A program made the translations under genes and the position numbers. Under the pieces are notes generated by a model. The model did not search any database. It saw only the letters and a program-made list of their open reading frames with translations, and had not been told where the DNA came from. Below, in pieces: positions 9,567 through 30,958 of a stretch of DNA of 64,000 nucleotides (position 1 is its first letter; every line of letters begins with the position of its first letter). Origin of the DNA: Fluviicola sp. (GTDB lineage Bacteria; Bacteroidota; Bacteroidia; Flavobacteriales_D; Crocinitomicaceae); NCBI GenBank assembly GCA_002734085.1, contig NVXV01000017.1, positions 1 through 64,000 on the forward strand, read 5' to 3'.

Positions 9567-9938
9567 ATGCTCCTAGAAAATTTTTATAAAGTAGAGAAAA
9601 TAGATAACTTAGATTCTAATAAGTACGAAGCTTATATTCACCTAAATAAGGGTCACGATATATTCAAAGGTCATTTTCCAAATAATCCTATTACACCAGG
9701 TGTATGTATGGTGCAAATCATTAAAGACCTAACTTCACAAGTAAAGGGTGTGAATTTATCGCTTATTAGTTCTAATAACATCAAATTTATGGCTGTTATT
9801 AATCCTGTTAACAATCCAGGCCTCAGACTCTCATTGGAATTAAAAGACAACGAAGATGGCACGATTAGTGTAAAAAACATCACATATTTTGATGAAACTG
9901 TAGCATTAAAGATGAGCGCTATTTATAAAATTAAATAA
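9567..9938 (+). CDS. Hotdog-fold dehydratase-like protein with an active-site Gln
   Basis: A 123-residue single hotdog domain with the FabA/FabZ motif KGHFPNNPITPGV. H36 is at the position of FabZ's catalytic His. The residue 14 places further on, Glu in FabZ, is Gln50 here (VCMVQ). The N-terminal LPHR segment of FabZ is missing. It could be a partner subunit that supplies the His of a mixed active site with the two proteins at 30023-30463 and 30533-30958, which keep the Glu but lack the His. Placed between the halogenase-like gene and a small exported protein gene. Confidence 0.8.
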   Translation: MLLENFYKVEKIDNLDSNKYEAYIHLNKGHDIFKGHFPNNPITPGVCMVQIIKDLTSQVKGVNLSLISSNNIKFMAVINPVNNPGLRLSLELKDNEDGTISVKNITYFDETVALKMSAIYKIK

Positions 9939-9940
9939 CT

Positions 9941-10426
9941 GTGAAAAGTATATTATTAACACTTGTATTGTTCCTTTCTATCCCCTCAAACGAAATTAAT
10001 GAGATCAGGCTGGCATTCAAAGATGCTAGTAAAAATGAAGAGAACGCTAGAGCTTTTTATGATCTTGTTAAGTCTGAAAAATACAGTGATGAGGTACTTT
10101 ATACTGCCTATAATGGAGCGTCGGAGGTGATATTATCCAAGTATATTGATGGAAGCATGGAAAAGTTGAAATACTTTAAGCAAGGTGCTAAAAAAATTGA
10201 TAAAGCTGTAGACCAGGATGAAATGAATATTGAAGTTCGATTTGTCAGATTAGTAATCCAGATGAATACTCCTGAATTTTTGAATTACAATGAAAATATA
10301 GATGAAGATAAAGAGTACTTATTAAACCATTACTCTAATTGTTCAAACAGTATTAAGAAAATGATAAGTGAGTATGTAAGTATGTCTGACTCATTTTCAA
10401 CAGAGGAAAAAAAACAATTAAAATAA
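9941..10426 (+). CDS. Small exported protein of unknown function
   Basis: A 161-residue protein with an apparent GTG start at 9941, 2 nt after the preceding stop, and an N-terminal signal peptide (KSILLTLVLFLSIPS). The rest is largely helical and charged (rich in Asp, Glu, Lys), without motifs I recognise. The tight packing, 2 nt after the hotdog gene and directly against the glycosyltransferase gene, makes it part of the rightward pigment operon. A periplasmic accessory role in pigment export is only a guess from the context. Confidence 0.78.
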   Translation: MKSILLTLVLFLSIPSNEINEIRLAFKDASKNEENARAFYDLVKSEKYSDEVLYTAYNGASEVILSKYIDGSMEKLKYFKQGAKKIDKAVDQDEMNIEVRFVRLVIQMNTPEFLNYNENIDEDKEYLLNHYSNCSNSIKKMISEYVSMSDSFSTEEKKQLK

Positions 10427-10432
10427 GTGATA

Positions 10433-11602
10433 ATGCAGGAAGGCCAAGCTAACAGTCTTAAATGTTGCGTTATTATCCCAACCTATAACAATCAAAATAC
10501 GCTTAAAAGAGTCCTTGATGGAGTGCTGAAGATTACAGATAAGGTAATAATTGTTAACGATGGTTCAACAGACGATACTAAATCTATATTAGCTCAATAT
10601 AAAGATGTTGAGCAGATTCACTTCAAAAAAAATATTGGTAAAGGGTTTGCGCTAAGAAAAGGATTTGAAAAAGCCCTTGACTTAGACTATAGTCATGCGA
10701 TTACCATTGATTCGGACGGCCAGCATTATCCTGAAGATATTCTCCTTTTTTTAGAATTCGTAAAAGACCAACCTGAAACATTAGTGATCGGCTCAAGAAA
10801 TATGAATCAAGAGGGAGTGCCAAATAAAAGTAGTTTTGGAAATAAATTTTCGAATTTTTGGTTTTGGTTTGAAACGGGGCTCAGTTTAAAGGATACCCAG
10901 TCAGGTTTTCGACTTTATCCGATTAAAAAAATGCCGAAATCATGGTTCACTAAAAAGTTTGAATTTGAAATTGAAGTAATTGTAAGAAGCGCGTGGAAAG
11001 GTATTAATGTTTGTAATATTCCAATACAAATAAAATACGATCCGGAAGAAAGAGTATCTCATTTCAGACCATTCAAAGATTTTTCGAGAATTAGTGTTTT
11101 GAACACTATACTCGTCTTGATTGCGATATTCTATATCAAACCTCGCGACTTTTTTAATCGATTCAAAAAAAAAAGCCTACGTGATTTTTTTATAGAAGAT
11201 GTTGTCGGAAGTAATGATAGCCCAAAAGTTAAGTCAACTTCTATATCGTTAGGTGTATTTATTGGCATCATTCCGATCTGGGGTTTTCAAACGATAACCG
11301 TAATTTTCTTAGCAATAACCTTTAGACTCAACAAACTGTTAGCATTTGCTGGTTCAAATATCAGTATCCCACCTATGATTCCAATTATCGTTTTCGCTTC
11401 TCTTAAAATAGGAGGGCTAGTCTTGAATAATGACGTCCCAGAAAATGAGATAGGTAATGGATTTAATTTTGGAAATCATTTGCTCGAGTACATTGTCGGC
11501 AGCTTTATTTTAGCGACCTTGTCGGCAATTTCAATCTGGTTTATTAGTTATTTTTTACTTTTAAAAATTGAAAGAAAATCATTGAAAAAAGATGACGAAT
11601 AG
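10433..11602 (+). CDS. Family 2 glycosyltransferase with C-terminal DUF2062 domain
   Basis: The N-terminal GT-A domain (residues about 10-220) has IIPTYNN, VNDGSTDDT and the metal/sugar-nucleotide DxD motif in TIDSDGQHYPED. The C-terminal 120 residues form a DUF2062 membrane domain (GVFIGIIPIWGFQT and further hydrophobic segments). I choose the ATG at 10433; a GTG at 10427 would add two residues. Such GT2-DUF2062 proteins occur in aryl polyene/flexirubin clusters and may glycosylate a lipid anchor or act as a dolichol-phosphate-mannose-synthase-like enzyme. The donor is unknown. It overlaps the next gene by 11 nt. Confidence 0.85.
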   Translation: MQEGQANSLKCCVIIPTYNNQNTLKRVLDGVLKITDKVIIVNDGSTDDTKSILAQYKDVEQIHFKKNIGKGFALRKGFEKALDLDYSHAITIDSDGQHYPEDILLFLEFVKDQPETLVIGSRNMNQEGVPNKSSFGNKFSNFWFWFETGLSLKDTQSGFRLYPIKKMPKSWFTKKFEFEIEVIVRSAWKGINVCNIPIQIKYDPEERVSHFRPFKDFSRISVLNTILVLIAIFYIKPRDFFNRFKKKSLRDFFIEDVVGSNDSPKVKSTSISLGVFIGIIPIWGFQTITVIFLAITFRLNKLLAFAGSNISIPPMIPIIVFASLKIGGLVLNNDVPENEIGNGFNFGNHLLEYIVGSFILATLSAISIWFISYFLLLKIERKSLKKDDE

Positions 11603-14600
11603 CTTTGTTGAAATATATGCTAAAGTAAAGAAGGCGAAAATTTTATTTTTTTCTTTGATATCCTTATTCCTTGCGGGGTGTTTTTATGTTGCTACTAAAA
11701 TTAATTTTGAAGAGGACATTACGCGGATTATCCCGAAAGGTGAGAAAAATGATATTACTGCAAAAGTCCTCCAACAATTAAATTTCTCGGACAAGATAAC
11801 AGTTATGATCGAGGCCAAGAATGAGTCCTCAAAAGAGAAGTTGTCCTCTGTCGCCAATGACTTTTTAGATACGGTTACTTACTATGATGAATACATAAAG
11901 GACATTCAAGGGAGTGTTGATAATGAGCAGATTGATGAAACTTTTGAATTTGTTTATAACAATCTGCCTTTATTTTTAGAAGATGTAGACTACTCAAAAA
12001 TAAAAAACAAATTAAGACCGGATAGCATTCGAAATACGATGCAACAAAATTACAACACCCTGATCTCTCCAACGGGTATTGTTGCTAAAAAATTCATTCT
12101 TAATGATCCACTAGGATTATCGTTTATCGGGTTAGAAAAACTTAGAAAAATAGGCATCTCGAAAGACTTTAAACTTAATGATGGTTTTGTATCAACATTA
12201 GATGGGAAGACCTTATTACTTTTTATAACACCTGTATACCCAGGTACAGACACTGAGCACAACGAAGCATTTGTAAATGAACTTTATGCTATTCAAGACT
12301 TAATTAATTCAGAGCACGATGGAGAAATTAAACTAACTTATTTTGGTTCTCCTTTTATTGCACTAGCAAATGCACGCCAAATAAAGTCTGACATTCAAAG
12401 CACTGTACTTATTTCGTTGGGAATCTTAATGCTAATTCTTATACTGTTTTATAGGAAGCTATATATCCCAGTAATTTTATTTATTCCTGCACTTTGCGGT
12501 GGATTAGTATCCTTAGCAGTTATGTATTTTTTAAAAGATTCGATTTCTGCAATTTCAATTAGTATTGGTGGTGTTTTACTGGGAATAACAATAGATTACT
12601 CCTTGCACATCATTACGCATTATCGTGAGCAAACGGATATAAACACATTGTACAAACACATCACGAAACCGATTTTAACCAGTAGTATAACTACCTCTGT
12701 TGCTTTTTTGTGTTTGATTTTTGTAAACTCTGAAGTACTCAGAGATCTTGGGATTTTCGCTTCGATTAGTGTAATTATTTCCGCAGTAGCTTCACTCATT
12801 ATTATTCCACAACTATATAAACCTAAAACAGAAAGAACCAATAATATTATTGACCGATTTGCAAATTATAAGTTTCACAGAAATAAGGTGCTAATAGCGC
12901 TTTGTCTCGCAGCAATTATCATCGGTGTATTTACCTTTTCAAAGGTCACTTTTAATAATAATATTGCAGACTTAAATTTCGTTCCCCAACCAATGAAAGA
13001 GTCTGAAAAACAGTTGGAAAACTTGGGAAGTATTGGTGCGAAAAGTATCTATTTATCTGTTTATGATACTGAAATTGAAGGGATACTTGATAAAAATAAT
13101 GACTTAGCATCACAGCTAAAAAAATTAAAAGATGAAGACCTGATAGAGGATTATACTTCACTAGGAAATGTTGTTTTGTCGAAGAAAACTCAGCGGGAGC
13201 GGATTCAGAAATGGAATTCGTTTTGGAGCGAGAATTCAGAGGATTCAGTCATAAACCGTGTAAATAGATCGGCCACAGATTTAGGTTTTAATTCAGATGC
13301 ATTTAAATCACTAGAAACCCTGCTTGAAAAAGATTTTAAGCCTATATCTCTAAAGGAATATGATAGTTTAGAAACTCTATTTATTGATGAGTTTTTGACT
13401 AATAAAGCGGGGTTTTTGACATTTTCTTCCATCTTAAAAATTGATAAAGACAATCGAGAAAAAGTAATTGAAGAGCTGGAAAGTGAAGACGTTGTTTTAA
13501 TTGATCGTAAACATTTAAATGAGCAATTTTTAGGACAGCTCAAAAATGACTTTGGCAATCTGATGAACTACTCCTTTATCGCTGTATTCATAATACTTTT
13601 AATCTTTTTTAGAAGGCTTGAATTGGCTTTAGTCAGTATGGTTCCAATTGTTTTAACAGGATTAGTTACTGCTGGAGCCATGTATCTATTAGACTTAGAA
13701 TTAAATATATTTAGTACGATTGTAACTACGTTGATTTTAGGCTTAGGGATTGACTTTAGTATATTTATGACTAGTGGACTTCAACAAAAGTATACTACAG
13801 GAGTAAACCAACTTAGAACTTACAGAACTTCTATTTTACTTGCTGTAATTACTACCGTTTTAGCCTTAGGAGCACTTATATTTGCTGAACATCCTGCTTT
13901 AAAGTCGATATCGCTTGTGTCCTTAATTGGGATATTATCAGCCATGATTATCACTTTCGTTTTCTATCCAGTAGTGTTTAGCATCTGTATAGAAAAAAGA
14001 CCAAGTAAAGGGAAGTCGCCAATAACACTGAGACTTTTTATTACAGCGATTTTATCCTTTTTCTACTATGGTTTTGGTGGGGTTATGTACTCGATTCTAG
14101 GGATGATAATTGTTCCTATTCTTCCCATGAAAAAGGAAAGAAAAATGAGAGTTTATAGGAAAGTAATAGCGAAATTTCTTATGTCTGTTATGTACTCTAA
14201 CTATGGCATAAAGAATAGAGTGAAAAATCCGCACAATGAGAAGTTTGAGAAACCAGCAATTATAATTCCGAACCATACTTCTTTCTTAGATACATTATCG
14301 ATGGGATTACTAGGAACTGAGTTTATCTTTTTGGTTAATGATTGGGTGTATAAATCACCTATCTTCGGAAAAGCTGTACAGATGGCGGGTTATTATCCAG
14401 TTTCTAAAGGGCTTGAAGGAGGCGAAGAGAAATTAATGGAGTTTGTTGAAAAGGGATATTCATTAATCATTTTCCCAGAAGGGACTCGTTCAATGTCTGG
14501 AGATATAGGACGTTTTCATAAAGGCGCTTTTCATTTAGCGAAGAAGTATAATATTGATATTGTTCCTTTATATGTTCATGGGAATCATAATTTATTACCC

Positions 14601-15251
14601 AAGGGAGATTTTATTATTTATGATGGAATCCATACCATGGAAATCGGTAAGAGAATAAAGTTTAATGAAAAGACTGAACATGGCGATGTACGGTCAATAA
14701 CAAGATCGATTAGTTCTGATTTTAAAAATAAATATCAGGAAATTCGTTATTCACTAGAAGACGAAAATTATTTCAAACAAAAAATTGAACTCAACTTTTT
14801 ATATAAAGCCCCAGATGTAGTGAAGTTAGCCAGAAAAGAGTTTAAAAATAATAAACACTTATACTATGCATTGAACCCTCATATTCCTAATAAAATGAAT
14901 ATACTAAGAATTGGAGATGATCTTGGAATTTGGGATTTAATGCTGGTTTTGCAACAAACTAAAAGAAAAGTTGTTTCCTATATTGAAAATGAGGAATATA
15001 GAAATGTGGCAGCGCAAAGTTATCTTTTGAAGTCGAAATCTATCGAGTATACGAATGACTATAGTCAAAAGGCGGATATTGTATTAATTACTGCTAATTT
15101 TGCAGAAGAAAAGATAATGAAAATTGTAGCAGAGCATAGCTATAAAGAAATAGTTGTCGTTAATAATATGTTTAATTATAAGCTTTTAGTTAAATTTAAT
15201 TACGATATAAAAATTGAAGACACTAACTTTGTCATCTTAAAGAAATCATAA
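11592..15251 (+). CDS. MMPL/RND-type exporter fused to a PlsC acyltransferase and a C-terminal Rossmann-like tail
   Basis: This 1219-residue protein has three parts. Residues 1-850 are an MMPL/RND transporter: TM1 near 15-35, an exported loop, a TM bundle about 270-410, TM near 433-452, a second loop, a bundle about 655-800, and a hydrophobic linker to about 850. Residues about 865-1060 are a PlsC/AGPAT domain with HxxxxD (H895-D900, NHTSFLD) and FPEGTR (961-966). The last about 150 residues contain ILRIGDDLGIWDL and look like a degenerate SAM-methyltransferase Rossmann fold. It probably extracts and exports a lipid-like pigment while acylating something at the membrane. Aryl polyene clusters also encode MMPL exporters and acyltransferases. 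Confidence 0.85.
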   Translation: MTNSFVEIYAKVKKAKILFFSLISLFLAGCFYVATKINFEEDITRIIPKGEKNDITAKVLQQLNFSDKITVMIEAKNESSKEKLSSVANDFLDTVTYYDEYIKDIQGSVDNEQIDETFEFVYNNLPLFLEDVDYSKIKNKLRPDSIRNTMQQNYNTLISPTGIVAKKFILNDPLGLSFIGLEKLRKIGISKDFKLNDGFVSTLDGKTLLLFITPVYPGTDTEHNEAFVNELYAIQDLINSEHDGEIKLTYFGSPFIALANARQIKSDIQSTVLISLGILMLILILFYRKLYIPVILFIPALCGGLVSLAVMYFLKDSISAISISIGGVLLGITIDYSLHIITHYREQTDINTLYKHITKPILTSSITTSVAFLCLIFVNSEVLRDLGIFASISVIISAVASLIIIPQLYKPKTERTNNIIDRFANYKFHRNKVLIALCLAAIIIGVFTFSKVTFNNNIADLNFVPQPMKESEKQLENLGSIGAKSIYLSVYDTEIEGILDKNNDLASQLKKLKDEDLIEDYTSLGNVVLSKKTQRERIQKWNSFWSENSEDSVINRVNRSATDLGFNSDAFKSLETLLEKDFKPISLKEYDSLETLFIDEFLTNKAGFLTFSSILKIDKDNREKVIEELESEDVVLIDRKHLNEQFLGQLKNDFGNLMNYSFIAVFIILLIFFRRLELALVSMVPIVLTGLVTAGAMYLLDLELNIFSTIVTTLILGLGIDFSIFMTSGLQQKYTTGVNQLRTYRTSILLAVITTVLALGALIFAEHPALKSISLVSLIGILSAMIITFVFYPVVFSICIEKRPSKGKSPITLRLFITAILSFFYYGFGGVMYSILGMIIVPILPMKKERKMRVYRKVIAKFLMSVMYSNYGIKNRVKNPHNEKFEKPAIIIPNHTSFLDTLSMGLLGTEFIFLVNDWVYKSPIFGKAVQMAGYYPVSKGLEGGEEKLMEFVEKGYSLIIFPEGTRSMSGDIGRFHKGAFHLAKKYNIDIVPLYVHGNHNLLPKGDFIIYDGIHTMEIGKRIKFNEKTEHGDVRSITRSISSDFKNKYQEIRYSLEDENYFKQKIELNFLYKAPDVVKLARKEFKNNKHLYYALNPHIPNKMNILRIGDDLGIWDLMLVLQQTKRKVVSYIENEEYRNVAAQSYLLKSKSIEYTNDYSQKADIVLITANFAEEKIMKIVAEHSYKEIVVVNNMFNYKLLVKFNYDIKIEDTNFVILKKS

Positions 15252-15252
15252 T

Positions 15253-16782: not shown

Positions 16783-18430
16783 GATATGTATTTATTTTTC
16801 ACTACTTTTTGTCATACTCTCCTGTGGTATGAGAAAATCTGTACGTCACCGACCTGATTTAGAAAGCTATAATAACACTCCTCCAGAAGTTAAAAAACAC
16901 CATGATAGTTTATTCACATCTGATGAAAACTACCTTTTAAAAAACAAATATGGTCAATGGGAACTCTATGTGGAAGGAGATCCGCTTGAGCGCGGGTTAG
17001 TCATTGGTGCTTTGGCGGATTCATTACTTTTGAAGCAGGAAAAAGTGTTTTTTGATAAAATCTCCGACATCGTTCCTTCCGAAAAAAAGCAAAAACGACT
17101 TAGAAAATTTATTCAATTCTATAATCGTAAGCTGTATTTGCATGTACCAGAAGAGTACAAAGCAGAAATATACGGCATGACCAGATATTCTTCTGAAGAG
17201 CACAATGATATTGCTCCCCCATACATCAGAGGTTTGTATTTACATGCTGCACATGATATTGGTCACGCTCTAGAAGACTTAATGATGGTTGGATGTACTT
17301 CCACGGCATTATGGGGTGATCAAACGGCAGATGGTGAACTATTAATTGGTCGTAATTTTGACTTTTACGCAGGAGATGAGTTCGCGGAAGAAAAGGTAGT
17401 TGCTTTTTTTAAACCAGATTCTGGAATCCCATTTATGTCTGTTACTTGGCCAGGTATGCTAGGTGTTGTTTCTGGAATGAACTACGAAGGGTTAACGATT
17501 ACAATGAATGCGGGTAAATCAAGTATTCCTTTGAAGGCGAAAAAACCAATTTCTATATTAGCTAGAGAGATTTTGCAATATGCTTCTAACATTGAAGAGG
17601 CGATTGAAATCGCAAAGGGAAGCGAAGTTTTTGTTTCTGAATCTTTAATGATTGGAAGCGCAAAAGATGGGAAAGCAGTATTAATTGAAATCTCTCCAGA
17701 TGAAATGGGGGTTTTCGAAGTGAGCAACACGCGACTCGTTTGTTCAAATCACTTCCAAAGTCAACCTTATGCAGATGATAAAAGAAACATCAAACACATT
17801 AACGAAAGTCATTCACAATTTAGATACAATAGAATGACTGAACTATTAAACGATACTACTAAATTTACACCAATTTCTCTTGCAAAAATTTTAAGAGATA
17901 AAAAAGGACTAGACGACGATTCAATTGGATATGGTAACGAGAAAGCATTGAATCAAATGCTCGCACATCACGCTGTGATTTTTAAACCAGAACAATTAAA
18001 GGTTTGGGTTTCTTCAAGTCCTTATCAACTTGGTGAATTTACAGCTTATGACCTAAACGAAATTTTTGGTGAGAAAAAAACGGAGTACGAATCACATTTG
18101 ATAGATTCTCTAACAATTCCTGAAGATGATTTTCTGCATACAAAGGCGTATGAGAATTACGAAAAATACCGTGTTGTAGATAGAATAATTGACAAAGCGA
18201 TTGAAAGTGAAGATGAGAATTTTGATTTGGGTCAACTGGAAGCGTACAGGGAACTCAACCCAAATCATTGGGTGGTTCACTATAAGTCGGGATTACTCTA
18301 TTACAGGGCAGAAAAATATAGTGAAGCAAAATCTGCCTTTGAAAGGGCACTTCAAAAAGAAATTACTACTTTAACGGACTGTTCTAAAGTTCAAGAAGCC
18401 CTAGAAAAGACAAACAAAAAGTTAAAATGA
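16766..18430 (+). CDS. Lipoprotein of the C45 / acyl-CoA:6-APA acyltransferase-like family
   Basis: The 554-residue protein starts with a lipoprotein signal peptide (lipobox ILSC, Cys20). The Ntn-hydrolase core runs from about residue 65 to 430. Its candidate nucleophile is C177 in VGCTSTALWG, followed by ELLIGRNFDF and GMNYEGLTITMN, typical of the C45 family (penicillin acyltransferase relatives). The last 60 residues look like one TPR unit (LYYRAEKYSEAKSAFERAL). Relatives cleave or make amide and ester bonds by acyl transfer. Its place in a flexirubin operon makes it one candidate for joining or trimming the aryl polyene ester outside the cytoplasm. Confidence 0.82.
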   Translation: MKKYSKICIYFSLLFVILSCGMRKSVRHRPDLESYNNTPPEVKKHHDSLFTSDENYLLKNKYGQWELYVEGDPLERGLVIGALADSLLLKQEKVFFDKISDIVPSEKKQKRLRKFIQFYNRKLYLHVPEEYKAEIYGMTRYSSEEHNDIAPPYIRGLYLHAAHDIGHALEDLMMVGCTSTALWGDQTADGELLIGRNFDFYAGDEFAEEKVVAFFKPDSGIPFMSVTWPGMLGVVSGMNYEGLTITMNAGKSSIPLKAKKPISILAREILQYASNIEEAIEIAKGSEVFVSESLMIGSAKDGKAVLIEISPDEMGVFEVSNTRLVCSNHFQSQPYADDKRNIKHINESHSQFRYNRMTELLNDTTKFTPISLAKILRDKKGLDDDSIGYGNEKALNQMLAHHAVIFKPEQLKVWVSSSPYQLGEFTAYDLNEIFGEKKTEYESHLIDSLTIPEDDFLHTKAYENYEKYRVVDRIIDKAIESEDENFDLGQLEAYRELNPNHWVVHYKSGLLYYRAEKYSEAKSAFERALQKEITTLTDCSKVQEALEKTNKKLK

Positions 18431-19713
18431 TTCCCGAGATAGAAAAAAGTAGTCCTGAGAATATCATTCAGTTTCAAGAAAAGAAATTGGCTGAACAATT
18501 GGTCTATCTAAAAGAGAATTCAATTTATTATCAGCGACTTTTTGATAAACACAACATCGATATTTCGACAATGAAGACGCTTCAAGATCTCGAACAAATT
18601 CCTGTCACTGATAAGTCTGATTTACAAGCTGAAAATGATGCTTTTTTCTGTGTTCCTAAAGAGCAAATCATCGACTTTGCAAGTACCTCTGGAACAATGG
18701 GGAAACCAGTTAGTTTTGGTCTCACAGATAAAGACTTGGATCGTTTGGCATATAACGAAGCGATCTCATTTGCTTGTGCTGGAATATCTAAAAATGATGT
18801 CGTTCAACTCATGACAACCATGGATAGAAAGTTCATGGCAGGTTTGGCGTATTTTTTAGGTCTGAGAAAGCTAGGAGCTGGTGTAATTAGAACGGGAGCT
18901 GGAATCCCTGAATTGCAATGGGACTCCATTTTAAGTAATAAACCAACCTTTTTAATTACGGTTCCTTCGTTTTTAATAAAGATGATCGAATACGCAGAAC
19001 AAAAAGGAATTGATATCAATAAAACGAGTGTAAAGACAGCGATTTGTATCGGTGAACCTTTACGAAAGCAAGACTTTTCTCCATCTGAACTTTCGAGAAG
19101 AATTAATGAAAAGTGGGGTATTAAACTCATATCAACTTACGCTTCTACAGAAATGAGTACTGCATTTACGGAGTGTGAATTTCAAAATGGTGGTCACGAG
19201 CACCCCGAGCTTATTATTACCGAAGTACTTGATGAAAACAATAAACCCGTTCAGGAAGGTGAAGTAGGTGAAATAACTGTAACAACATTAGGCATTGAAG
19301 CTGTTCCTCTTTTACGATTTAAAACAGGAGATTTAGCTCGGCTTTACAACGAGCCTTGTAAGTGTGGGAGAACAACCAAACGCGTAGGTCCAGTTCTAGG
19401 TAGGACGCAACAAATGATCAAGTACAAGGGGACAACTGTTTATCCGCCAGCGATGCACGATGTACTTAATTCTTTTGAAAACATTTCTGGACACGTGATT
19501 GAAGTGGAAAAAAATCAAATTGGAACAGACGATATTATTGTAAAAATTGTCAGTGAAGATCAATCCAATGAATTTGTTGACAACATCAAGAATCATTTTA
19601 GAGCCAAATTGAGAGTTACTCCAACAATAGAATTCATTAGCGTGCAAGAGCTCAATAAAATATCTTTCCCACCGAATAGTAGAAAGCCTAAAAACGTAAT
19701 CGATAAGAGATAG
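18427..19713 (+). CDS. Adenylate-forming enzyme, phenylacetate-CoA-ligase-like
   Basis: The 428-residue protein shows the ANL-family phosphate loop STSGTMGKPV (about residues 90-99), the STE motif in TYASTEMST and the hinge region RFKTGDLARL. A Cys-rich CKCGR stretch, common in PaaK-like ligases, follows. It overlaps the C45 gene by 4 nt and ends the rightward unit. In this context it most likely activates 4-hydroxycinnamate, made by the ammonia-lyase, for loading on an ACP. It is probably not the PaaK of the paa locus 30 kb away. ACP ligase versus CoA ligase activity cannot be told from sequence. Confidence 0.86.
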   Translation: MIPEIEKSSPENIIQFQEKKLAEQLVYLKENSIYYQRLFDKHNIDISTMKTLQDLEQIPVTDKSDLQAENDAFFCVPKEQIIDFASTSGTMGKPVSFGLTDKDLDRLAYNEAISFACAGISKNDVVQLMTTMDRKFMAGLAYFLGLRKLGAGVIRTGAGIPELQWDSILSNKPTFLITVPSFLIKMIEYAEQKGIDINKTSVKTAICIGEPLRKQDFSPSELSRRINEKWGIKLISTYASTEMSTAFTECEFQNGGHEHPELIITEVLDENNKPVQEGEVGEITVTTLGIEAVPLLRFKTGDLARLYNEPCKCGRTTKRVGPVLGRTQQMIKYKGTTVYPPAMHDVLNSFENISGHVIEVEKNQIGTDDIIVKIVSEDQSNEFVDNIKNHFRAKLRVTPTIEFISVQELNKISFPPNSRKPKNVIDKR

Positions 19714-19719
19714 CTTTAA

Positions 19720-19790: not shown

Positions 19791-19799
19791 AACCCCACA

Positions 19800-21012: not shown

Positions 21013-21773
21013 GTCGTTTCTTTTAAAAGTCCTTCAACCGTTACGCTACGGTAGTTGTTTGAATCCAGGTAAATCAACAATCGTTCCAATACTTTTACTG
21101 ACCTTTCTGATGTATCATGTAGCAAAATAATACTTCCAGGGTGAATTTGACGTATGATTCGATTGTATATTTTAGATTCATCGTGAATTAAGGTGTCTAA
21201 GGAGCGAACATTCCAACCTATAACTTTGTGTTTCGTTTTATTCAAAGCTCTAGCAATTCTGGGGTTTGTGACGCCGAAAGGGGGTCTGAAATAGGCTGGT
21301 TTCACACCACTATATTTTTCAATTGCTTCATCCGTTTTTTCAATTTCAGCTTTCACTGTTTTTGTCCAGGAAAATCCAATATCCTTCGAATGAGAGTACG
21401 TGTGATTACCAACTAGGTGCCCCTTTTCAATAATTAACTTCAATAATTCTGGTTCTTGTGCTACGTTTTTACCTACACAGAAAAACGATGCCTTAGCGTT
21501 GTATTTTTCCAAAAGGTCTAACACTTCTTTAGTGTATGAAGAAGGTCCGTCATCAAAAGTAATGGCAACCACTTTTTTGTTTGTTTTAACTTTAGTTAAT
21601 GCTTTTAAGTGATAGTTGGTTTGAATGAAAAAAGAACCATACAGAATAAGTAAGAACCATGCTACAAACCCCCAAATGAAATAGGAAAGTGACCAGCCAA
21701 GATTTAGATAACCAAAAACATAGATCAACGTGAAAAGTCCAAAGACAATATAGCCTAATTGATGCTTAGACAT
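21009..21773 (-). CDS. Polysaccharide deacetylase (NodB-fold), membrane-anchored
   Basis: A 254-residue protein with two N-terminal hydrophobic helices (about residues 8-26 and 29-50), then a NodB domain. Motif 1 is TFDDGP (D74, D75), motif 2 is HTYSH (H124, H128), and further motifs are RPPFG and LLHDT. These bind the metal and carry out de-N-acetylation of sugars. The active site would face the periplasm. Its substrate in a pigment operon is unknown; it might act together with the glycosyltransferase at 10433-11602. It overlaps its neighbours by 4 and 8 nt. Confidence 0.9.
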   Translation of the reverse strand: MSKHQLGYIVFGLFTLIYVFGYLNLGWSLSYFIWGFVAWFLLILYGSFFIQTNYHLKALTKVKTNKKVVAITFDDGPSSYTKEVLDLLEKYNAKASFFCVGKNVAQEPELLKLIIEKGHLVGNHTYSHSKDIGFSWTKTVKAEIEKTDEAIEKYSGVKPAYFRPPFGVTNPRIARALNKTKHKVIGWNVRSLDTLIHDESKIYNRIIRQIHPGSIILLHDTSERSVKVLERLLIYLDSNNYRSVTVEGLLKETT

Positions 21774-22833: not shown

Positions 22834-22845
22834 CAGTTCTACTAA

Positions 22846-24051: not shown

Positions 24052-24057
24052 TGAGTT

Positions 24058-24327
24058 TTATTTTGTTCTATTCTCCTCTATGAATTTTGCCATAGTCTCA
24101 ATAGATTCAAATATTTTTTTTCCTTCTTTTGGGTCAGTAAGCTTGATTCCGTAGTCTTTGTCCAACATAACAATTAGCTCTAAAGCGTCAATTGAATCTA
24201 ACCCAAGACCTTCACCAAATAAGTTGTCATTGTCGTTAATATCTTCAACAGATATATCCTCCAAATTCAATGAAGTAATAATCTTATTCTTAAGTTCTGT
24301 TTTTAATTCTCCCATATCGTTACTCAA
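24058..24327 (-). CDS. Acyl carrier protein
   Basis: An 89-residue carrier protein with the signature GLGLDSIDALEL; Ser45 takes the phosphopantetheine arm. It overlaps nothing essential: the stop is 6 nt from the ketosynthase gene, and its 5' end overlaps the short thiolase-fold gene by 8 nt. It is a pathway ACP for the KS:CLF pair downstream. It differs clearly from the ACP at 3353-3607, so the two may serve different stages, such as polyene and alkyl chains. Confidence 0.94.
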   Translation of the reverse strand: MSNDMGELKTELKNKIITSLNLEDISVEDINDNDNLFGEGLGLDSIDALELIVMLDKDYGIKLTDPKEGKKIFESIETMAKFIEENRTK

Positions 24328-24922
24328 TCAATGTTTTTAAATGTTCTTTTGAATGTTCCGTTTTGCCATTTGGCGAGACCTTGTACACAAAAGCGTTATA
24401 ATTGTCTTTATTCACCTCAACCCAGGCGCACAGTACGGAAGACGCTTTGTTTAAATGAATTAGACTATTGGCGTAATCAACCATGAATTCAGGGTTAAAG
24501 TCCTCAAAGATAAAAAAAGAATTTTCACTTCTCAATTTATATTTGATACTAATTTCTCCTAATGCAATGTTAGGGAGGGTGTAAACAAAGTTTGCGGGGC
24601 TCGGATAATAATCATCTTTATCTTCTATTGTACTTTGATGCTTTAGATCAACGTCAATACATGAAGATTTATTGGAAAGCAAAAGTGCCATATCATCTTC
24701 TATTGCACCTTCTGAGTTATCCAGTAATATTGAAGCAATAACAATGGACAGCTTACACAATGGATCCATCTTATAAAACTTTGGGTAATCAATTTCAAAA
24801 TGTTTGTAAACTGACTTTATAAAACCGTCAAAGTTTTTTTCTTCATTCGTAAAGAGTACCTTGTCATCAAGAATAACTTGACCATTACTTATTCTGCAAT
24901 AATGATGAATCCCGTTATTCAT
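24320..24922 (-). CDS. Short thiolase-fold (ketosynthase-related) protein
   Basis: About 200 residues. I choose the ATG at 24922, because the longer reading to 24967 begins with TTG and overlaps the upstream gene by 53 nt. A central segment, SPANFVYTLPNIALGEISIKY, resembles the region of ketosynthases around the active site, but with no Cys there. The protein is only half the usual length. It may be a degenerate ketosynthase that acts as a structural or priming partner. Similar short proteins are found in Bacteroidota pigment clusters. Function unknown. Confidence 0.72.
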   Translation of the reverse strand: MNNGIHHYCRISNGQVILDDKVLFTNEEKNFDGFIKSVYKHFEIDYPKFYKMDPLCKLSIVIASILLDNSEGAIEDDMALLLSNKSSCIDVDLKHQSTIEDKDDYYPSPANFVYTLPNIALGEISIKYKLRSENSFFIFEDFNPEFMVDYANSLIHLNKASSVLCAWVEVNKDNYNAFVYKVSPNGKTEHSKEHLKTLIE

Positions 24923-26078
24923 TGGTGTTGAATTTTTGAAAAATGACAGCGGTATTACTTCCTCCAAATCCAGAAGCTGTTTTTAGCACTGTATGGATTG
25001 ATTTTGATTGTGTTTGAGCGCTAATATTTAATGGAAGAGTAACACCCATCTCGTCAAATCCAAAGGAAGGAGGTATTTTGTTTTCGTCAGCTGAAGCAAG
25101 CGAAATGACTGTTTCCAATAATCCTGCAGCTCCCAATGTATGACCAAAAAAACCCTTAAGACTAAAAAGAGGAGTTTGTGCAAGATCAGCGCGACTAAAA
25201 GCTTGTGCCTCCATTTCATCATTGTAGTTTGTAGCCGTACCGTGAGAAGAAATCATATCAATATCTTTTGGTTTCACTCCCGCTTCTTTGATTGCTTTTT
25301 GAACACTTTGAAATAATCCTTCACCTGTTCGGGATGGACCAGAAATGTGATTTGCATCGTTAATCGAGCTCTCTCCTGTAATTTTATAACTATTTGAAGT
25401 TAAAAGTGATTTGTCTTTTGTAACAAACATCGCTGCTGCTGCTTCTCCAAGTGTAATTCCATCTCTGTTTTTAGAGTAAGGTTTACACGGTTTTGGACTA
25501 ACGGCTTGAAAAGACTGGAATCCAGAAAATACGAATTTTGAAAACAAATCGGCTCCTACAACTACAATATGGTCATATTTGTCAGTTTGAATCAGTCTTT
25601 TTGCTACAGAAACTGCCATGATTCCTGATACACAAGCGTTGGATAAAACAATAGGCTGTGTTTTTATATCCATTGCTTTACTGATTTTACTTGCTGTGTT
25701 GTGCAAATAATAATTTTCAATTTCAGCATTGTCAAGCGCATCTATATTTCCTTTTGTAGTTGAAAATATAATTCCGCATCTTTTACTGAATACGTGACTG
25801 TATTTGGTGACAATGCCGTTCAATACAATCAAAATCATTTTTTCCAGCTTCGAAAAAGGACCTTCGTAGTTTAACTTTGAAAATTCTTTTTCAATTACTG
25901 TTTCACTAATAATAGCACCATAGAATGGAGATTCACTTAAATCAGAATTGCTATGTTTTTCAATGGCTAAATTACCTTTGTCGATTGCGACTAAATTTTC
26001 AGATACATTGCTCCCGGCTGGAGATAGACAATTTCCAGAGGTCGCATAAACTGATATATTAGAAAAATCCTGATCCAT
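24915..26078 (-). CDS. Beta-ketoacyl-ACP synthase
   Basis: A 387-residue ketosynthase with the triad C149 (SNACVSG), H279 (SSHGTATNYND) and H313 (FFGHTLGAAG). The N-terminus is more divergent than in FabF (ATSGNCLSPAG). It directly follows the thioesterase gene (sharing one base) and overlaps the short thiolase-fold gene. It is the third intact KAS I/II-like enzyme of the cluster; priming with the aryl starter or making the alkyl chains for the resorcinol are both possible. Confidence 0.9.
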   Translation of the reverse strand: MDQDFSNISVYATSGNCLSPAGSNVSENLVAIDKGNLAIEKHSNSDLSESPFYGAIISETVIEKEFSKLNYEGPFSKLEKMILIVLNGIVTKYSHVFSKRCGIIFSTTKGNIDALDNAEIENYYLHNTASKISKAMDIKTQPIVLSNACVSGIMAVSVAKRLIQTDKYDHIVVVGADLFSKFVFSGFQSFQAVSPKPCKPYSKNRDGITLGEAAAAMFVTKDKSLLTSNSYKITGESSINDANHISGPSRTGEGLFQSVQKAIKEAGVKPKDIDMISSHGTATNYNDEMEAQAFSRADLAQTPLFSLKGFFGHTLGAAGLLETVISLASADENKIPPSFGFDEMGVTLPLNISAQTQSKSIHTVLKTASGFGGSNTAVIFQKFNTNE

Positions 26079-26524
26079 TAATTGAATTTTACTTTTTCCT
26101 TCCAGTTTTGGTAAAATTCTGGTGGATAAAGAGATAATTCACCATTTACATTAACAAAAGCTTGAATAGTTTCTCCAGTACAAACCAATTCTTTATGTTG
26201 ATTGTAAATTTCATAATGGAAAATCATTTTAGCGGCTGGCGTATCTAAAATCTTAGTTTCCACAGTAAACGTGTCTCCATATTTTAAAGGAAGCTTATGG
26301 TCACAACTTGATTTTACAATGGGTGTTGAGAAGTCGTTCTCGTGAATATCCAAATAACTTATCCCGTGTTTCCTTCCAAATTCTTCTCTACCTTCTTCAA
26401 AGTAAGCTATATAGTTTCCGTGCCACACAATACCAAGCGGATCTGCATCATTAAACTTAACCCTTCCTTCATAAACAGTAGTAAGATGTGAAACTTCGTT
26501 ATACTTGGTTCGTTTTTTTCTCAT
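26078..26524 (-). CDS. Acyl-CoA/acyl-ACP thioesterase, 4HBT hotdog family
   Basis: About 148 residues in one hotdog domain with the 4HBT pattern: RVKFNDADPLGIVWHGNY (Asp and His motif), then a long helix with FEEGREEF. I take the ATG at 26524; the longer reading to 26536 starts with TTG. The family hydrolyses acyl thioesters, and an equivalent gene is present in aryl polyene clusters. It could release chains or clear mis-primed ACP. It overlaps the ABC permease gene by 26 nt. Confidence 0.87.
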   Translation of the reverse strand: MRKKRTKYNEVSHLTTVYEGRVKFNDADPLGIVWHGNYIAYFEEGREEFGRKHGISYLDIHENDFSTPIVKSSCDHKLPLKYGDTFTVETKILDTPAAKMIFHYEIYNQHKELVCTGETIQAFVNVNGELSLYPPEFYQNWKEKVKFN

Positions 26525-27776
26525 AAGCCACTGCAATAGTAATATTAATTATAAAGAAAGTCAATAATAATAGCAAGTTTGGAACAAGAGCAAATAAGCC
26601 AACATCTCTTAATAAAACATCGTAAAAACCTTCTAATCCCCAATTCATCGGAGATATTTTAGCCATCATTTGCATTGATTCAGGCATGGCGAAAACAGGG
26701 AACCATAATCCACCGACTGCGGCTAATATTACAACAGATGTAGCGCCAAATGGAGCAGCTTGTTCGTGTGTTTTAGCGATAGTACCAATCAATACTCCAA
26801 AACCAATTGCGGCTAATCCTGCGAAGAGTGCAACAATACTCATATTGAAAAGTTTTCCATCAATGTTTAAATTGGGTAATCCCATAGCAGGGAAGAGGTA
26901 TATTCCCACCAACAACATGAGGAAAAACTGAATCATACAAACTACTAGATATACAATGATTTTACTCATCATTAATTGAAATTTAGAAATTGGCAAAGTT
27001 CTCAACCGAATATATGTTCCTTGATTTTTTTCTTTTACTAAATTGATAGAAAGCGGTATAACAATAAAAAAGATGGCAAATAATGTCCATGAAGGAAGGT
27101 TGTGCTCAACAGCATTCGGTTTTACTCCGCCTTTGTCTAGATTGATAGATGTTTCTGTGAACTTAATTAAGTTTTCGCTTCCAAAGAAGTCAATGTTTGC
27201 TCCGAGTTCTTTTTCGAATGATTTGTAAATGGTGTTTTTTTCAAGTTCTGAAACCATTCCTTCAATGCTTCTTTTGATATTTGAAGTAAAAGATTCTCGT
27301 AATGCAGGGTCAAAATAGATCTTAACTTCTTTTGCCTTTTCCGAAGAAGCAAGCGGTACGGTTTCATTTTCTGAAGGCATAACTTGATTCAGTAGATTCT
27401 CAACTTGTTTGTTGGTTTGTTCATCTATGAATTCAGAAAACGATTCAGGGATAACGATAAGAATTTTGTAATCGCCACTTTTAATCAAAGCGCGTCCTTG
27501 TTCTTCCGTTAACTTTTTATCTTCTAAGGATGTAATAATTTGATAATTGCCATTACTTTTTAAGTCAGAAATGATATTACTGGATAGTTCACCATCGTCG
27601 TTATTTGCAAGTAGTATAGGTAATTGTATATTGTTTTGTCCTTCCTCTACGCTATTCTGAATGGAGGTAATTGTTATAATTAAAACAACAGGCATTAAAA
27701 AGATAATCGCAAAACCAACGATATCTCTTTTGAGCAGACGAAGCTCTTTTAATATGGCATGAAAAATCTTAAACAT
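26499..27776 (-). CDS. ABC-2 type transporter permease
   Basis: A 425-residue membrane protein: TM1 at about residues 17-40, a large extracytoplasmic loop (about 40-230), then five hydrophobic segments between about 230 and 420. This is the ABC2_membrane_3 layout seen in lipid, polysaccharide and drug exporters. It overlaps the ATPase gene by 8 nt. One permease and one ATPase gene would give a homodimeric exporter. In this operon the cargo is probably the pigment or a precursor, working alongside the MMPL exporter. Confidence 0.9.
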   Translation of the reverse strand: MFKIFHAILKELRLLKRDIVGFAIIFLMPVVLIITITSIQNSVEEGQNNIQLPILLANNDDGELSSNIISDLKSNGNYQIITSLEDKKLTEEQGRALIKSGDYKILIVIPESFSEFIDEQTNKQVENLLNQVMPSENETVPLASSEKAKEVKIYFDPALRESFTSNIKRSIEGMVSELEKNTIYKSFEKELGANIDFFGSENLIKFTETSINLDKGGVKPNAVEHNLPSWTLFAIFFIVIPLSINLVKEKNQGTYIRLRTLPISKFQLMMSKIIVYLVVCMIQFFLMLLVGIYLFPAMGLPNLNIDGKLFNMSIVALFAGLAAIGFGVLIGTIAKTHEQAAPFGATSVVILAAVGGLWFPVFAMPESMQMMAKISPMNWGLEGFYDVLLRDVGLFALVPNLLLLLTFFIINITIAVAYEKKTNQV

Positions 27777-28521
27777 GATCTCTTAACTCTTTACCGGTTG
27801 TGTCTATAAATATCTCTTCAAGTGTTTTTACTTTTCCATCTTTAATCAGTACTTCTTGAGTCGGACCTTGGACTTTGATTTTTCCATTGTCGATAATTGC
27901 GACGTTTGTGCAAAAGGATTGGGCTTCACTGAGTAAATGAGAAGAGTAGATAATTGTTGTGCCTTCCTTGTTCAAATGATTCAGGAAATTAATTATCGCA
28001 TGTTTGGATTGGACATCAACTCCCACTGTAGGTTCATCGAGAAACAAGATTTTAGGACTATGTAAAACTCCCGCTAATAAATTGATTCGTCGCTTCATTC
28101 CGCCAGAAAAAGTGTCAATTCTACGATTGATAAATTTTTCTAACCCCATTTTGGAAATACCTTCTTCTATCTTTTTAGCTAACTCCTCTTTTTTTATCCC
28201 ATACATACTACCAAAAAACTCGAGGTTTTCTCGGGCAGTTAATTTTGGATAGAGAGCATATTCTTGAGGCACAGCTCCAATAATTTGTTTTAATTTGTTT
28301 GAATTTTTTGAAAAATTTAATCCATCTATCGTAAAAGAGCCATTATTAGGTTTGATTAGTCCCGTGAGAATTGAAATTAATGTTGTTTTACCCGCACCGT
28401 TTGGTCCTAAAAGTCCGAGAATCTCTCCTTTTTTAACGGAAAGACTCAAGCCGTCCAAAGCCATGAAGTCGGTCCCTTTGTATTTTTTCGAAATTCCTTT
28501 TACTTCAATGATATTGTCCAT
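27769..28521 (-). CDS. ABC transporter ATP-binding protein
   Basis: A 250-residue ATPase with Walker A (GPNGAGKTT, about residues 40-48), Q-loop (VPQEYALY), signature (FSGGMKRR, about 140-147) and Walker B (LFLDEPTVGVD). The first in-frame ATG is at 28521; a GTG lies one codon upstream. It powers the permease encoded just downstream. It starts 3 nt after the BtrH-like gene, so acyl transfer and export are co-expressed. Confidence 0.95.
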   Translation of the reverse strand: MDNIIEVKGISKKYKGTDFMALDGLSLSVKKGEILGLLGPNGAGKTTLISILTGLIKPNNGSFTIDGLNFSKNSNKLKQIIGAVPQEYALYPKLTARENLEFFGSMYGIKKEELAKKIEEGISKMGLEKFINRRIDTFSGGMKRRINLLAGVLHSPKILFLDEPTVGVDVQSKHAIINFLNHLNKEGTTIIYSSHLLSEAQSFCTNVAIIDNGKIKVQGPTQEVLIKDGKVKTLEEIFIDTTGKELRDHV

Positions 28522-28524
28522 CAC

Positions 28525-29523
28525 TTATAATGACTTTTTAAGATCTGTGAAAAGTTTTCGCTCTTTATCGGAAATATCAATCATCATTTCTGATAATTGT
28601 TGATAAGCATTATCATCTTTCACTCTTTCCTTACAAACTCGTGAAGCATGTAATGCGAAATCTCGCCAATCATCACCAATTTCAGTCATGTTTTGAGATA
28701 AATCATTGAGTGATGGGTTTCCTAAGATAGTTGCTGCTTCTTGCAAAAATGCAGCATAAATAAATCGAAAACCACCACCTCCAGTTCCAATTTCTTCTTG
28801 CATCCGAATGATTTGTGCTAAATAGTGATTAGCCTTTTTAATACCCACTTTTTTTGGCCATTTCGCTACTTTTTTACCAACGAATTTAATACCATTAACA
28901 CCAACGAGTGGAACTGGTGCTAACATATCTTTTGTCGTTTTTTTTATGCCTGAAAGAACTGCTTTTTCAATATTAACTTCTGTAGGAACTGAAGTGGGAT
29001 AATACATATGACCTTTGGGTGCGAAAGCACCTTTAGCGAATCGTACTTTAGCGAGTTCTTTTTTAGTAAGCACAGAGGTAGTTTCCATCACAGGATCACT
29101 GATGAGGTAGTTATCTCCTTCCTTCCCGTAAACAACAAGGTTGTGCGCATTAAAATGAAATCTATATTCATCTGGAAAATAAGGTAAATGATAAACGCCT
29201 ACTTGAAGGCCAGAAGGAATTCCCAAGTCAAGGTTTCTGTCTAAAGCGGCAAACGCTTTTTCTTCATTCGAAAAACGTTCTCTTTTAATCTTAATATTTA
29301 ATTGCTTTGCAGCTCTGGAAAATATGATCCCAGGCATAGGGCGATAACTTATTGCTGGTGCATGATTTACTTTGAGAAAAGGAATGTACACGTAAAAGAT
29401 ACCCGATCCAATTCCGAAAACTAAAGGTTCACTGATGTCTAAACCATTAAATTTTAAAACATTCGAGGCAACTCCGTTTTCGCAATGCGCGGACTGGTGA
29501 TGCTGAAATTCAACTATTTTCAT
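28525..29523 (-). CDS. BtrH-like ACP-dependent acyltransferase (BtrH N-terminal + DUF4872)
   Basis: A 332-residue protein. Residues 1-150 match the butirosin BtrH N-terminal domain, with HCENGVASNVL near residue 13 (candidate nucleophile Cys14) and a later HFNAHNLVVYG region (candidate His) followed by SDP. The C-terminal half fits DUF4872. In butirosin synthesis BtrH moves an acyl group from an ACP to an acceptor. In a flexirubin cluster this suggests ACP-to-phenol transfer, i.e. making the ester between the aryl polyene acid and the dialkylresorcinol. That last step is inference. It overlaps the upstream small gene by 14 nt. Confidence 0.85.
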   Translation of the reverse strand: MKIVEFQHHQSAHCENGVASNVLKFNGLDISEPLVFGIGSGIFYVYIPFLKVNHAPAISYRPMPGIIFSRAAKQLNIKIKRERFSNEEKAFAALDRNLDLGIPSGLQVGVYHLPYFPDEYRFHFNAHNLVVYGKEGDNYLISDPVMETTSVLTKKELAKVRFAKGAFAPKGHMYYPTSVPTEVNIEKAVLSGIKKTTKDMLAPVPLVGVNGIKFVGKKVAKWPKKVGIKKANHYLAQIIRMQEEIGTGGGGFRFIYAAFLQEAATILGNPSLNDLSQNMTEIGDDWRDFALHASRVCKERVKDDNAYQQLSEMMIDISDKERKLFTDLKKSL

Positions 29524-29917
29524 TAAAGTCTTTTAATTCGTTTACTTCTATTTCGAACACTTCAGCATATTTTTTGATTACGGTGTCGTTCAGTTTTTTA
29601 AAAACTTTTGGTTTTGCGTGGCGTTTTACTATCCATTTCCGTTTTCCCATGTAACTGGCAAGAATACTCCAATCCATACGAGAAAGCTCCATAAAATAGA
29701 CAATCGGACTTTTTTTACCTTCTAACACTAACTTTTTAGCATTTTCAATGCGTTCATTCAAGTCCTCCATGGTAACTTCTAGCGCTATCGTTTTTGGTTT
29801 CCACCCAGAGCTTAAAGCTGTAGAGTACTCTCCATTTTCGTCAACAGCATAACACATCTCTTTCATGTCTTTTGAAGAAAGCGAACTCTCGTCTTGAGGT
29901 ATGGAATCTTTTTTCAT
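29510..29917 (-). CDS. Small conserved-looking protein upstream of the BtrH-like gene
   Basis: A 135-residue soluble protein with no signal peptide and no motif I recognise. It is rich in Lys and Glu, with a central helical part (LNERIENAKKLVLEG) and a basic C-terminal half that could form an HTH-like fold. The 14-nt overlap with the BtrH-like gene indicates translational coupling. It is the first gene of the long leftward unit, so a regulator or a BtrH partner are both conceivable. Confidence 0.75.
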   Translation of the reverse strand: MKKDSIPQDESSLSSKDMKEMCYAVDENGEYSTALSSGWKPKTIALEVTMEDLNERIENAKKLVLEGKKSPIVYFMELSRMDWSILASYMGKRKWIVKRHAKPKVFKKLNDTVIKKYAEVFEIEVNELKDFNENS

Positions 29918-29940
29918 TTTGATTAACCAATAGTTAAGTA

Positions 29941-29948
29941 CAAATATA
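29941..29948 (-). promoter_or_regulatory. Candidate -7 box for the long leftward pigment unit
   Basis: Minus-strand TATATTTG (29948-29941) matches the Bacteroidota -7 element, 24 nt upstream of the first ATG (29917). No clear TTTG lies at 19-22 nt upstream. It would drive the 13-gene run ending at 19800. Confidence 0.4.
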
Positions 29949-30022
29949 ATATTGATTACTTAAAAAGGCGAAGAAGTTGGGAGGAGATATAATTGGTACT
30001 GAGAATTATCGACAAAAGGAAT

Positions 30023-30463
30023 TTAAACGTGAATAATTAAATTAAAACTACTCTCTGCAATTTTGACATCATCACAATAGGTTTCGCAAATCATGTCACA
30101 ATTAAAAATATCACCTACTGGGTGACTTGAAATTAATCTACCATGAGTGGTTAAGGTTTTGTTTAATAAAGGCAAGTTAAAAATCTCAACACTTTTGATT
30201 TTACTAATATATCCTTGAATCGAATAATTCTCGTCTCCTTCATTTTGATCAAAATAAGGTCTTCCAATTATACCAGAACTTGTTTGAGCTGCGTTTTCAA
30301 TAATTCCAATTTCGCTCAATGCACCATTTTCTAAGAAAATATTATCTTCCAGTATTTCTAGCGTGGTTGTAATCTCTTCGTCATTAAGACATGTTATTTC
30401 GTCAACCATTAACATTGGTTTTCTGTGCGGTAAAAACCGTCTTATATCAATGGGGAAATCCAT
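30023..30463 (-). CDS. FabZ-like hotdog dehydratase subunit lacking the catalytic His
   Basis: A 146-residue hotdog protein with the FabZ N-terminal motif RFLPHRKPMLMVD and the helix motif IIENAAQ. E56 aligns with FabZ's catalytic Glu. The His that should lie 14 residues earlier (GHFP in FabZ) is replaced: the segment reads NIFLEN, with Ile42 at the His position. The neighbour 30533-30958 has the same change. It may need a His-bearing partner such as the 9567-9938 protein. It would form the double bonds of the polyene. Confidence 0.82.
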   Translation of the reverse strand: MDFPIDIRRFLPHRKPMLMVDEITCLNDEEITTTLEILEDNIFLENGALSEIGIIENAAQTSSGIIGRPYFDQNEGDENYSIQGYISKIKSVEIFNLPLLNKTLTTHGRLISSHPVGDIFNCDMICETYCDDVKIAESSFNLIIHV

Positions 30464-30532
30464 GATGCTAAAATAGCAAATTTTAATTTTTGTAATTTGA
30501 AATACAGATAGTATTTTTCAAAATGTAAATAT

Positions 30533-30958
30533 CTATTCAGCCAAAACAGTTTTAAGTTGTGCTGAGATAATTGGTTTGTCGTCACAGGTAACGGTTGCAT
30601 CGACTAGAGTGACACCCATAAATTCCTGTAATACTTTAACATCTGTTTTAATTATTTCACCAACCTTAGGCAGTGATATCAATTTTACATTTTTTATTGA
30701 GCCAATATATCCTGTTGGTGCTTTTTTATTCTTAAGGAAGAAATCATAATTCGTATGTAAAGCTATGGATTGAGCCATGTTTTCAATTAAACCAGACTCA
30801 TTGAACTCATCATTTTCAACAAATAGATTGTCAGATAAGATTTCAAATCCAGTCGTTATTGAGGTTTCCTTAAAATCATACAAAAAACTAACCATAACAA
30901 ATGGCTTTTTCTGTGGAAGTAACTCTTCAACTTTACTTTTTGTAATTATTGTATCCAT
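30533..30958 (-). CDS. Second FabZ-like hotdog dehydratase subunit lacking the catalytic His
   Basis: A 141-residue protein related to its neighbour at 30023-30463. LLPQKKPFVMVS replaces the LPHR motif of FabZ, and LIENMAQ keeps the Glu (E59). The His position is Leu45 (NLFVEN). The two proteins probably arose by duplication and could form a heterodimer, as dehydratase pairs are found in aryl polyene clusters. It starts 16 nt after darB, so it is likely in the darAB unit. Confidence 0.82.
   Translation of the reverse strand: MDTIITKSKVEELLPQKKPFVMVSFLYDFKETSITTGFEILSDNLFVENDEFNESGLIENMAQSIALHTNYDFFLKNKKAPTGYIGSIKNVKLISLPKVGEIIKTDVKVLQEFMGVTLVDATVTCDDKPIISAQLKTVLAE

Follow-up and report, generated by a model that had tools for sequence, protein, structure and literature searches.

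Which protein removes water from the growing chain in flexirubin biosynthesis, when no protein of the pigment gene cluster carries both catalytic residues of the dehydratase FabZ? This question is raised by a stretch of 64,000 nucleotides from Fluviicola sp. (assembly GCA_002734085.1, contig NVXV01000017.1, positions 1 to 64,000), hereafter the window. It holds part of a flexirubin biosynthesis cluster, as FlxY, DarB, DarG and DarH were all identified above their NCBIfam cut-offs; two carrier proteins, ketosynthases, a short-chain dehydrogenase, an aromatic amino acid lyase and a 4HBT thioesterase are also encoded in the cluster (Table 1). A preliminary description of the window had noticed that three of its hotdog proteins, P0001, P0002 and P0003, each lack one of the two FabZ residues, and had suggested that a mixed dimer could combine them into one composite site. 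Our analysis indicates that P0001 and P0003 probably form a heterodimeric dehydratase with a single active site, with P0002 as a second glutamate-bearing chain that may compete for the same histidine-bearing chain.

The three genes lie where the preliminary description had placed them, to which we add their strands (+ for P0001, - for the other two), and their translations agree with the residues it had named (H36/Q50, E56 and E59). In P0001 (the His chain), His36 is part of a GHFP motif, and Gln50 is found 14 residues further on. Glu56 of P0002 and Glu59 of P0003 (the Glu chains) each lie within Glu-Asn-x-Ala-Gln, the FabZ equivalent of which is Glu-Ala-x-Ala-Gln, and the loop preceding them has no GHFP and is approximately 4-5 residues shorter than in FabZ. 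The earlier statement that Ile42 and Leu45 replace the His describes one register among several, the loop being shortened: hhalign placed I42 of P0002 opposite the FabZ His and gave an ambiguous register for P0003, and the HMMER alignments of both proteins put the gap inside the loop. What stands of this statement is that no register yields a conserved His. Judged from the sequences, the split covers more than two residues, with the GHFPxxPxxPG loop in P0001, and the Glu helix together with an N-terminal LP[HQ] motif in P0002 and P0003. None of the three proteins has the catalytic His and Glu of FabZ in one chain.

A search of the whole genome for members of the FabA/FabZ family gave two matches above the cut-off, P0001 and an LpxC-FabZ fusion on another contig, as well as two weaker matches below it. 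The FabZ part of the fusion has both His and Glu and is the only match above the cut-off that does, in agreement with the earlier observation that no complete FabZ is present in the pigment cluster. Being alone in this respect, the housekeeping fusion might be thought to dehydrate the polyene intermediates, leaving other work to the hotdog proteins of the cluster. However, His and Glu chains are retained together, with intact catalytic residues, in the 67 genomes in which we found them, and the related aryl polyene (APE) pathway has its own dehydratase pair, ApeI:ApeP. We consider this explanation extremely improbable.

For the comparison across genomes, 199 genomes of the order were surveyed, and 395 genomes of the phylum were searched with P0002, after which the 34 other positives were searched with P0001 and P0003. 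The 67 genomes are all those found with both kinds of chain (33 from the order and 34 from the phylum set), the phylum set being biased to Glu chains by its selection through P0002. Within the order, a Glu chain occurs in 33 of the 199 genomes and a His chain, at E <= 2.7e-12, in the same 33. The best His-chain match in the other 166 genomes had an E value of 2.1e-7 (a 155-codon frame), followed mainly by frames of 400-600 codons, which is the length of LpxC-FabZ fusions. In the phylum set, His chain and Glu chain were present together in 34/34 genomes. The two genes are adjacent in one genome (G547), and among the true relatives listed we noticed no frame that could accommodate a fusion of both chains. 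We also observed that in another genome of the same genus (G179) the pigment cluster consists of two parts separated by about 400 kb (C1:1638129 and C1:2034772), with the His chain on one and the Glu chains on the other.

The preliminary description had proposed aligning the catalytic positions across flexirubin clusters. In this alignment, the catalytic His of the His chain was conserved in 67/67 genomes, the P0003-type Glu in 67/67 (with His at -14 in none), and the P0002-type Glu in all 30 genomes having that chain. Of the 123 columns in the His-chain alignment (60 rows), 6 are invariant, the His among them; of the 141 in the P0003 alignment (63 rows), 5 are, including the Glu; these alignments omit seven His chains and four P0003-type chains, respectively, which are included in the 67-genome counts. 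A naive chance that both catalytic columns are invariant is ~6/123 x 5/141 = 0.002, a figure that ignores the clustering of residues in motifs; on these alignments, conservation of the catalytic residues exceeds chance. A scan of named genomes gave at least 569 confirmed P0003 relatives, the best 80 of which were kept (mostly Flavobacterium, including F. johnsoniae CI04). All 80 have both Glu chains in tandem, as they are the nearest relatives, and the Glu of each chain is present in 80/80. Across the P0003 and P0002 families (143 and 110 rows), both the catalytic Glu and the AQ-motif Gln are invariant. The +14 position of the His chain, on the other hand, is Gln in 46 genomes, Glu in 16, Ala in two, and Asp, Arg and Asn in one each. 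Because this position varies, no site other than a mixed one, with His and Glu from different chains, has both residues throughout the 67 genomes.

The same position bears on a second explanation, in which P0001 is complete as a homodimer, with Gln50 or water replacing Glu, and P0002 and P0003 have no catalytic role but give the tunnel its shape, in the way that HadA and HadC serve HadB. The Glu or Asp found at +14 in 17 of the 67 His chains, and the Asp of Escherichia coli ApeI there, would fit such an arrangement, as would HadAB/HadBC, whose catalytic centre is believed, in the passages available of PMC3245277, to be carried by HadB. However, a structural partner needs no Glu, and that of the partners is invariant (67/67, 30/30 and twice 80/80 in the best 80 of at least 569 relatives), in the P0003 family as one of just 5 columns; moreover, 50 of the 67 His chains have Gln, Ala, Arg or Asn at +14. 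An enzyme made of P0001 alone is thus unlikely.

The preliminary description had also considered that another residue might take the role of the missing one, and for the Glu chains we examined the conserved His residues as substitutes. A His within the 13 residues before the Glu occurs in 16 of 143 P0003 rows and 11 of 110 P0002 rows, and no column there exceeds 30% His. Elsewhere, P0003 rows have His in 74% at column 68 and 66% at column 60, both on the predicted helix that carries the catalytic Glu; His68 lies 9 residues beyond the Glu and is missing from many relatives of the single type. In P0002 rows, His13 (LPHR) is present in 110/110 and column 95 is His in 63%, and an equivalent of His13 is also found in the FabZ of this genome and in E. 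coli ApeP. We infer that none of these residues is a likely replacement.

The three chains had been taken as one puzzle, which the comparison does not bear out: there is one His chain, one Glu chain present in 67/67 genomes, and one extra clade of Glu chains. The second Glu chain was found in 30 of the 67 genomes, a count that is no prevalence given the selection of the phylum set (6 of 33 in the order only), and in four families (f1, f3, f16 and f17). It is always accompanied by the first (30/30). The relatives of P0002 form one clade, with a Shimodaira-Hasegawa-like approximate likelihood ratio test (SH-aLRT) support of 100, as is also the case for the corresponding His chains (99); on these trees, the second Glu chain has one origin. 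The order DarB, P0003, P0002 is conserved in 24/24 loci, with DarG next in 23, and in 80/80 loci of the named set, with DarG in 79; P0003 and P0002 genes of this set are less than 60 nt apart in 79/80 loci (69 nt in the window). Different measures point to different members of the pair as the counterpart of ApeP. By scores, P0003 is closer than P0002 to the single-copy Glu chains; in the tree, P0002 is nested among them on long branches; and the ApeP model is matched by relatives of P0002 only.

The close linkage of the pair, together with the fact that the second chain is never present without the first, would also be expected if P0002 and P0003 bound each other as a pseudo-dehydratase (for intermediate binding, chain-length control or as a scaffold), with P0001 pairing with one or neither. 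Close spacing is common in operons, however, the pair would have no catalytic His, and the catalytic Glu and AQ-motif Gln are kept in every row of both families. We regard such a complex as quite unlikely.

We rejected a possible correlation of the His chain's loss of Glu with the presence of a second Glu chain. The +14 residue is Gln in all 30 genomes of the tandem type, and in the other 37 it is Glu in 16, Gln in 16, Ala in two, and Asp, Arg and Asn in one each. On the 60-row tree there are one tandem change, two changes between Glu and other residues, and 1 independent pair, and the correlation was dismissed, showing nothing, because the tandem type may be one inherited clade.

We therefore return to the heterodimer of P0001 and P0003, which would be the 3-hydroxyacyl-acyl carrier protein dehydratase of the flexirubin polyene synthase. 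In this FabZ-like hotdog heterodimer, His36 of P0001 would face Glu59 of P0003 at one of the two interface tunnels, forming the one working site; the mirror site, composed of Gln50 and the His-less loop, would be dead, its tunnel being without both residues. P0002 would compete with P0003 for P0001, giving a second one-site heterodimer (His36 and Glu56), perhaps for a different substrate or chain length. A split site is to be expected from ApeI:ApeP, which has the same residue split and a crystal structure in the Protein Data Bank (6QSR, 'The Dehydratase Heterocomplex ApeI:P from Xenorhabdus doucetiae'), and from the trans site of FabZ. One step further, three genes could give two dehydratases via partner exchange, with one His chain, two interchangeable Glu chains and one composite site per mixed dimer, the Glu chain picking the substrate; we put this forward tentatively, as somewhat short of an even chance. 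If true, the Glu chain would decide between early and late polyene, or between the polyene and dialkylresorcinol arms, and the logic would be that of HadABC with the catalytic pair itself split and the shared chain inert without a partner.

Structure prediction suggests a FabZ-like fold for both Glu chains: the AlphaFold2 models have predicted local distance difference test (pLDDT) values of 92.3 (P0003) and 87.8 (P0002). Against chain B of 6QSR, Z was 19.9 for P0003 (root-mean-square deviation (rmsd) 1.8, 136 aligned) and 17.8 for P0002 (rmsd 2.1, 135 aligned; in Foldseek, this chain was not among the 50 rows listed), in both cases about 1 below the best FabZ chains. P0001 matches Pfam FabA above the cut-off, and 18 of 25 members of the P0001-type alignment match the ApeI-like family PF22818 at E <= 0.01. 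The ApeP-like family PF22817 is matched by 5/30 members of the P0002 alignment and 0/20 of the P0003 alignment; NCBIfam FabZ models gave weak matches to both Glu chains. With hhalign, E. coli ApeP was matched by P0002 with a probability of 93.4 and by P0003 with 78.3.

Several observations weigh against the proposed heterodimers. P0001 itself scores 19.1 bits with PF22818 (cut-off 28.5); P0002 and P0003 reach no Pfam cut-off and have no PF22817 match at E <= 1, and 20 P0003 relatives gave no match to a Pfam family at E <= 0.01. The P0002 profile fits the FabZ of its own genome better (probability 96.4) than E. coli ApeP, and the fit of both Glu-chain models to plain FabZ chains is as good as that to ApeP, so that the structural search fails to separate the two. 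In chain B of 6QSR, the Glu is preceded, at a distance of 8 residues, by a His that E. coli ApeP does not have. Loss of Glu from the His chain is not universal, and the 16 His chains with their own Glu could act as homodimers; variation at +14 amounts to just 5 changes on the 60-row tree. Binding of P0002 to P0001 is a suggestion from residue conservation and co-inheritance. Because the window proteins miss the ApeI-like and ApeP-like cut-offs, we describe them as probably working like ApeI:ApeP and do not file them in these Pfam families.

Table 1. Features of the flexirubin cluster in the window
Feature	Position	Strand	Remarks
Acyl carrier protein	3353..3607	-	PF00550
Ketosynthase	3610..4833	-	
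Short-chain dehydrogenase, presumed ketoreductase	4840..5577	-	
Aromatic amino acid lyase (FlxA-like)	6693..8216	-	
P0001, ApeI-like His chain, 123 aa	9567..9938	+	GHFP with His36; Gln50 at FabZ Glu position
FlxY acyl-CoA ligase	18427..19713	+	NF053551, 709 bits (cut-off 520)
Second acyl carrier protein	24058..24327	-	PF00550
4HBT thioesterase	26078..26536	-	presumably a hotdog fold; no dehydratase candidate
DarH, BtrH-related acyltransferase	28525..29523	-	NCBIfam, 509 bits (cut-off 300)
DarG	29510..29917	-	NCBIfam flexirubin DarG, 194 bits (cut-off 170); conserved neighbour downstream of Glu-chain pair
P0002, second tandem ApeP-like Glu chain, 146 aa	30023..30463	-	Glu56, without GHFP loop; in 30/67 genomes
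P0003, ApeP-like Glu chain, 141 aa	30533..30958	-	Glu59, without GHFP loop; in 67/67 genomes; FlxF-like by gene order
DarB (dialkylresorcinol ketosynthase)	30975..32117	-	NCBIfam, 593 bits (cut-off 550); conserved neighbour upstream of Glu-chain pair
DarA-like dialkylresorcinol condensing enzyme	32117..33022	-	no NCBIfam match at E <= 1e-5; name presumed from position

Several other genes of the cluster were observed. A frame of 215 codons (24320-24967) lies between a carrier protein and a ketosynthase and has no Pfam match at E <= 1e-3 and no NCBIfam match at E <= 1e-5; presumably it may be a ketosynthase N-terminal or chain-length-factor-like protein. Within the polyene operon, 5578-6690 encodes a protein with repeats that we take to be WG-like, which has counterparts in three genomes (G115, G073 and G105). 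Divergent from the lyase gene, 8295-9524 encodes a flavin-dependent protein resembling the halogenase CmlS (150.8 bits, far below the cut-off of 900), which may halogenate or hydroxylate the aryl ring. A compact cluster in another genome (G106) has the order lyase, ketoreductase, ketosynthase, carrier protein, acyltransferase, Glu chain, thioesterase, ketosynthase and, further on, His chain; past an ABC transporter it has a second set of carrier protein and two ketosynthases (L096:3482-6034), of which the window has one.

The preliminary description did not know whether the complementarity of the chains had been described. It has: in E. coli CFT073, ApeI combines GHF-His with Asp at +14 and ApeP combines Glu with Phe at -14, and chains A and B of 6QSR are split in the same way. 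This structure is said to come from Grammbitter et al. in 2019, and the ApeI:ApeP complex was reportedly stable by native mass spectrometry. For A. baumannii ApeI/ApeP, a single active site per heterodimer is stated in the part available of a 2021 paper (PMC8041823). The composite site suggested earlier is in agreement with residue conservation, the FabZ trans site and the homologous ApeI:ApeP (6QSR), although it is not new and does not make one puzzle of three chains. In both systems, which share the FabZ fold and a type II polyene synthase, one chain has GHF-His without Ala-Gln after the Glu position and the other Glu-x-x-Ala-Gln without GHF-His; unlike the Asp of E. coli and 6QSR ApeI, P0001 has Gln at +14, and the window sequences fall below the Pfam cut-offs and include an extra Glu chain. 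The part for which we found no description is this second Glu chain, beside the first and with one His chain. Neither a split site nor three dehydratases in flexirubin clusters were found in the open-access passages covered (from PMC8041823, PMC8253772, PMC3992019, PMC3949708, PMC8358021, PMC12664062, PMC3245277 and PMC2692856), subscription papers and supplements lying outside the search.

FabZ itself resembles the proposed pair in its fold and in building its site in trans, from His58 of one subunit and Glu72' of the second (in the passages available of PMC2692856), but has both residues in each chain and two sites per homodimer. In the Chitinophaga pinensis flexirubin cluster, FlxF and FlxS were named polyene dehydratases by the authors (PMC3992019, in part). 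The gene order of the compact G106 cluster is compatible with flx, the P0001-type chain being at a FlxS-like and the Glu chain at a FlxF-like position, where the letters were assigned from gene order without use of C. pinensis sequences. The passages available of that paper mention neither pairing nor a division of residues between chains, nor a second Glu chain. Similarly, two genes of the Azoarcus arcuflavin cluster, also a polyene-dialkylresorcinol pigment cluster, are annotated dehydratase, ArcI and ArcS (PMC3949708, in part). No dar gene is annotated so in the table available there, whereas in the window darB and darG flank the two Glu chains.

These results point to a split-site pair, in its design a homologue of ApeI:ApeP, as the enzyme that dehydrates the polyene in flexirubin clusters, so that a label of FabZ-like dehydratase on each single chain would be misleading. 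HadAB/HadBC is probably the nearest analogue for the second Glu chain: according to the passages available of PMC3245277, HadB is common to both and its partners go with early and late elongation. As there, one shared chain would have two alternative partners, known here from the genes of 30 of the 67 genomes. Unlike HadB, which is believed in these passages to hold the catalytic centre, the shared chain here has His without the acid (Gln50 in P0001), Glu being on the other chain. The extra Glu chain would be a compact and testable case of a shared catalytic half with different partners.

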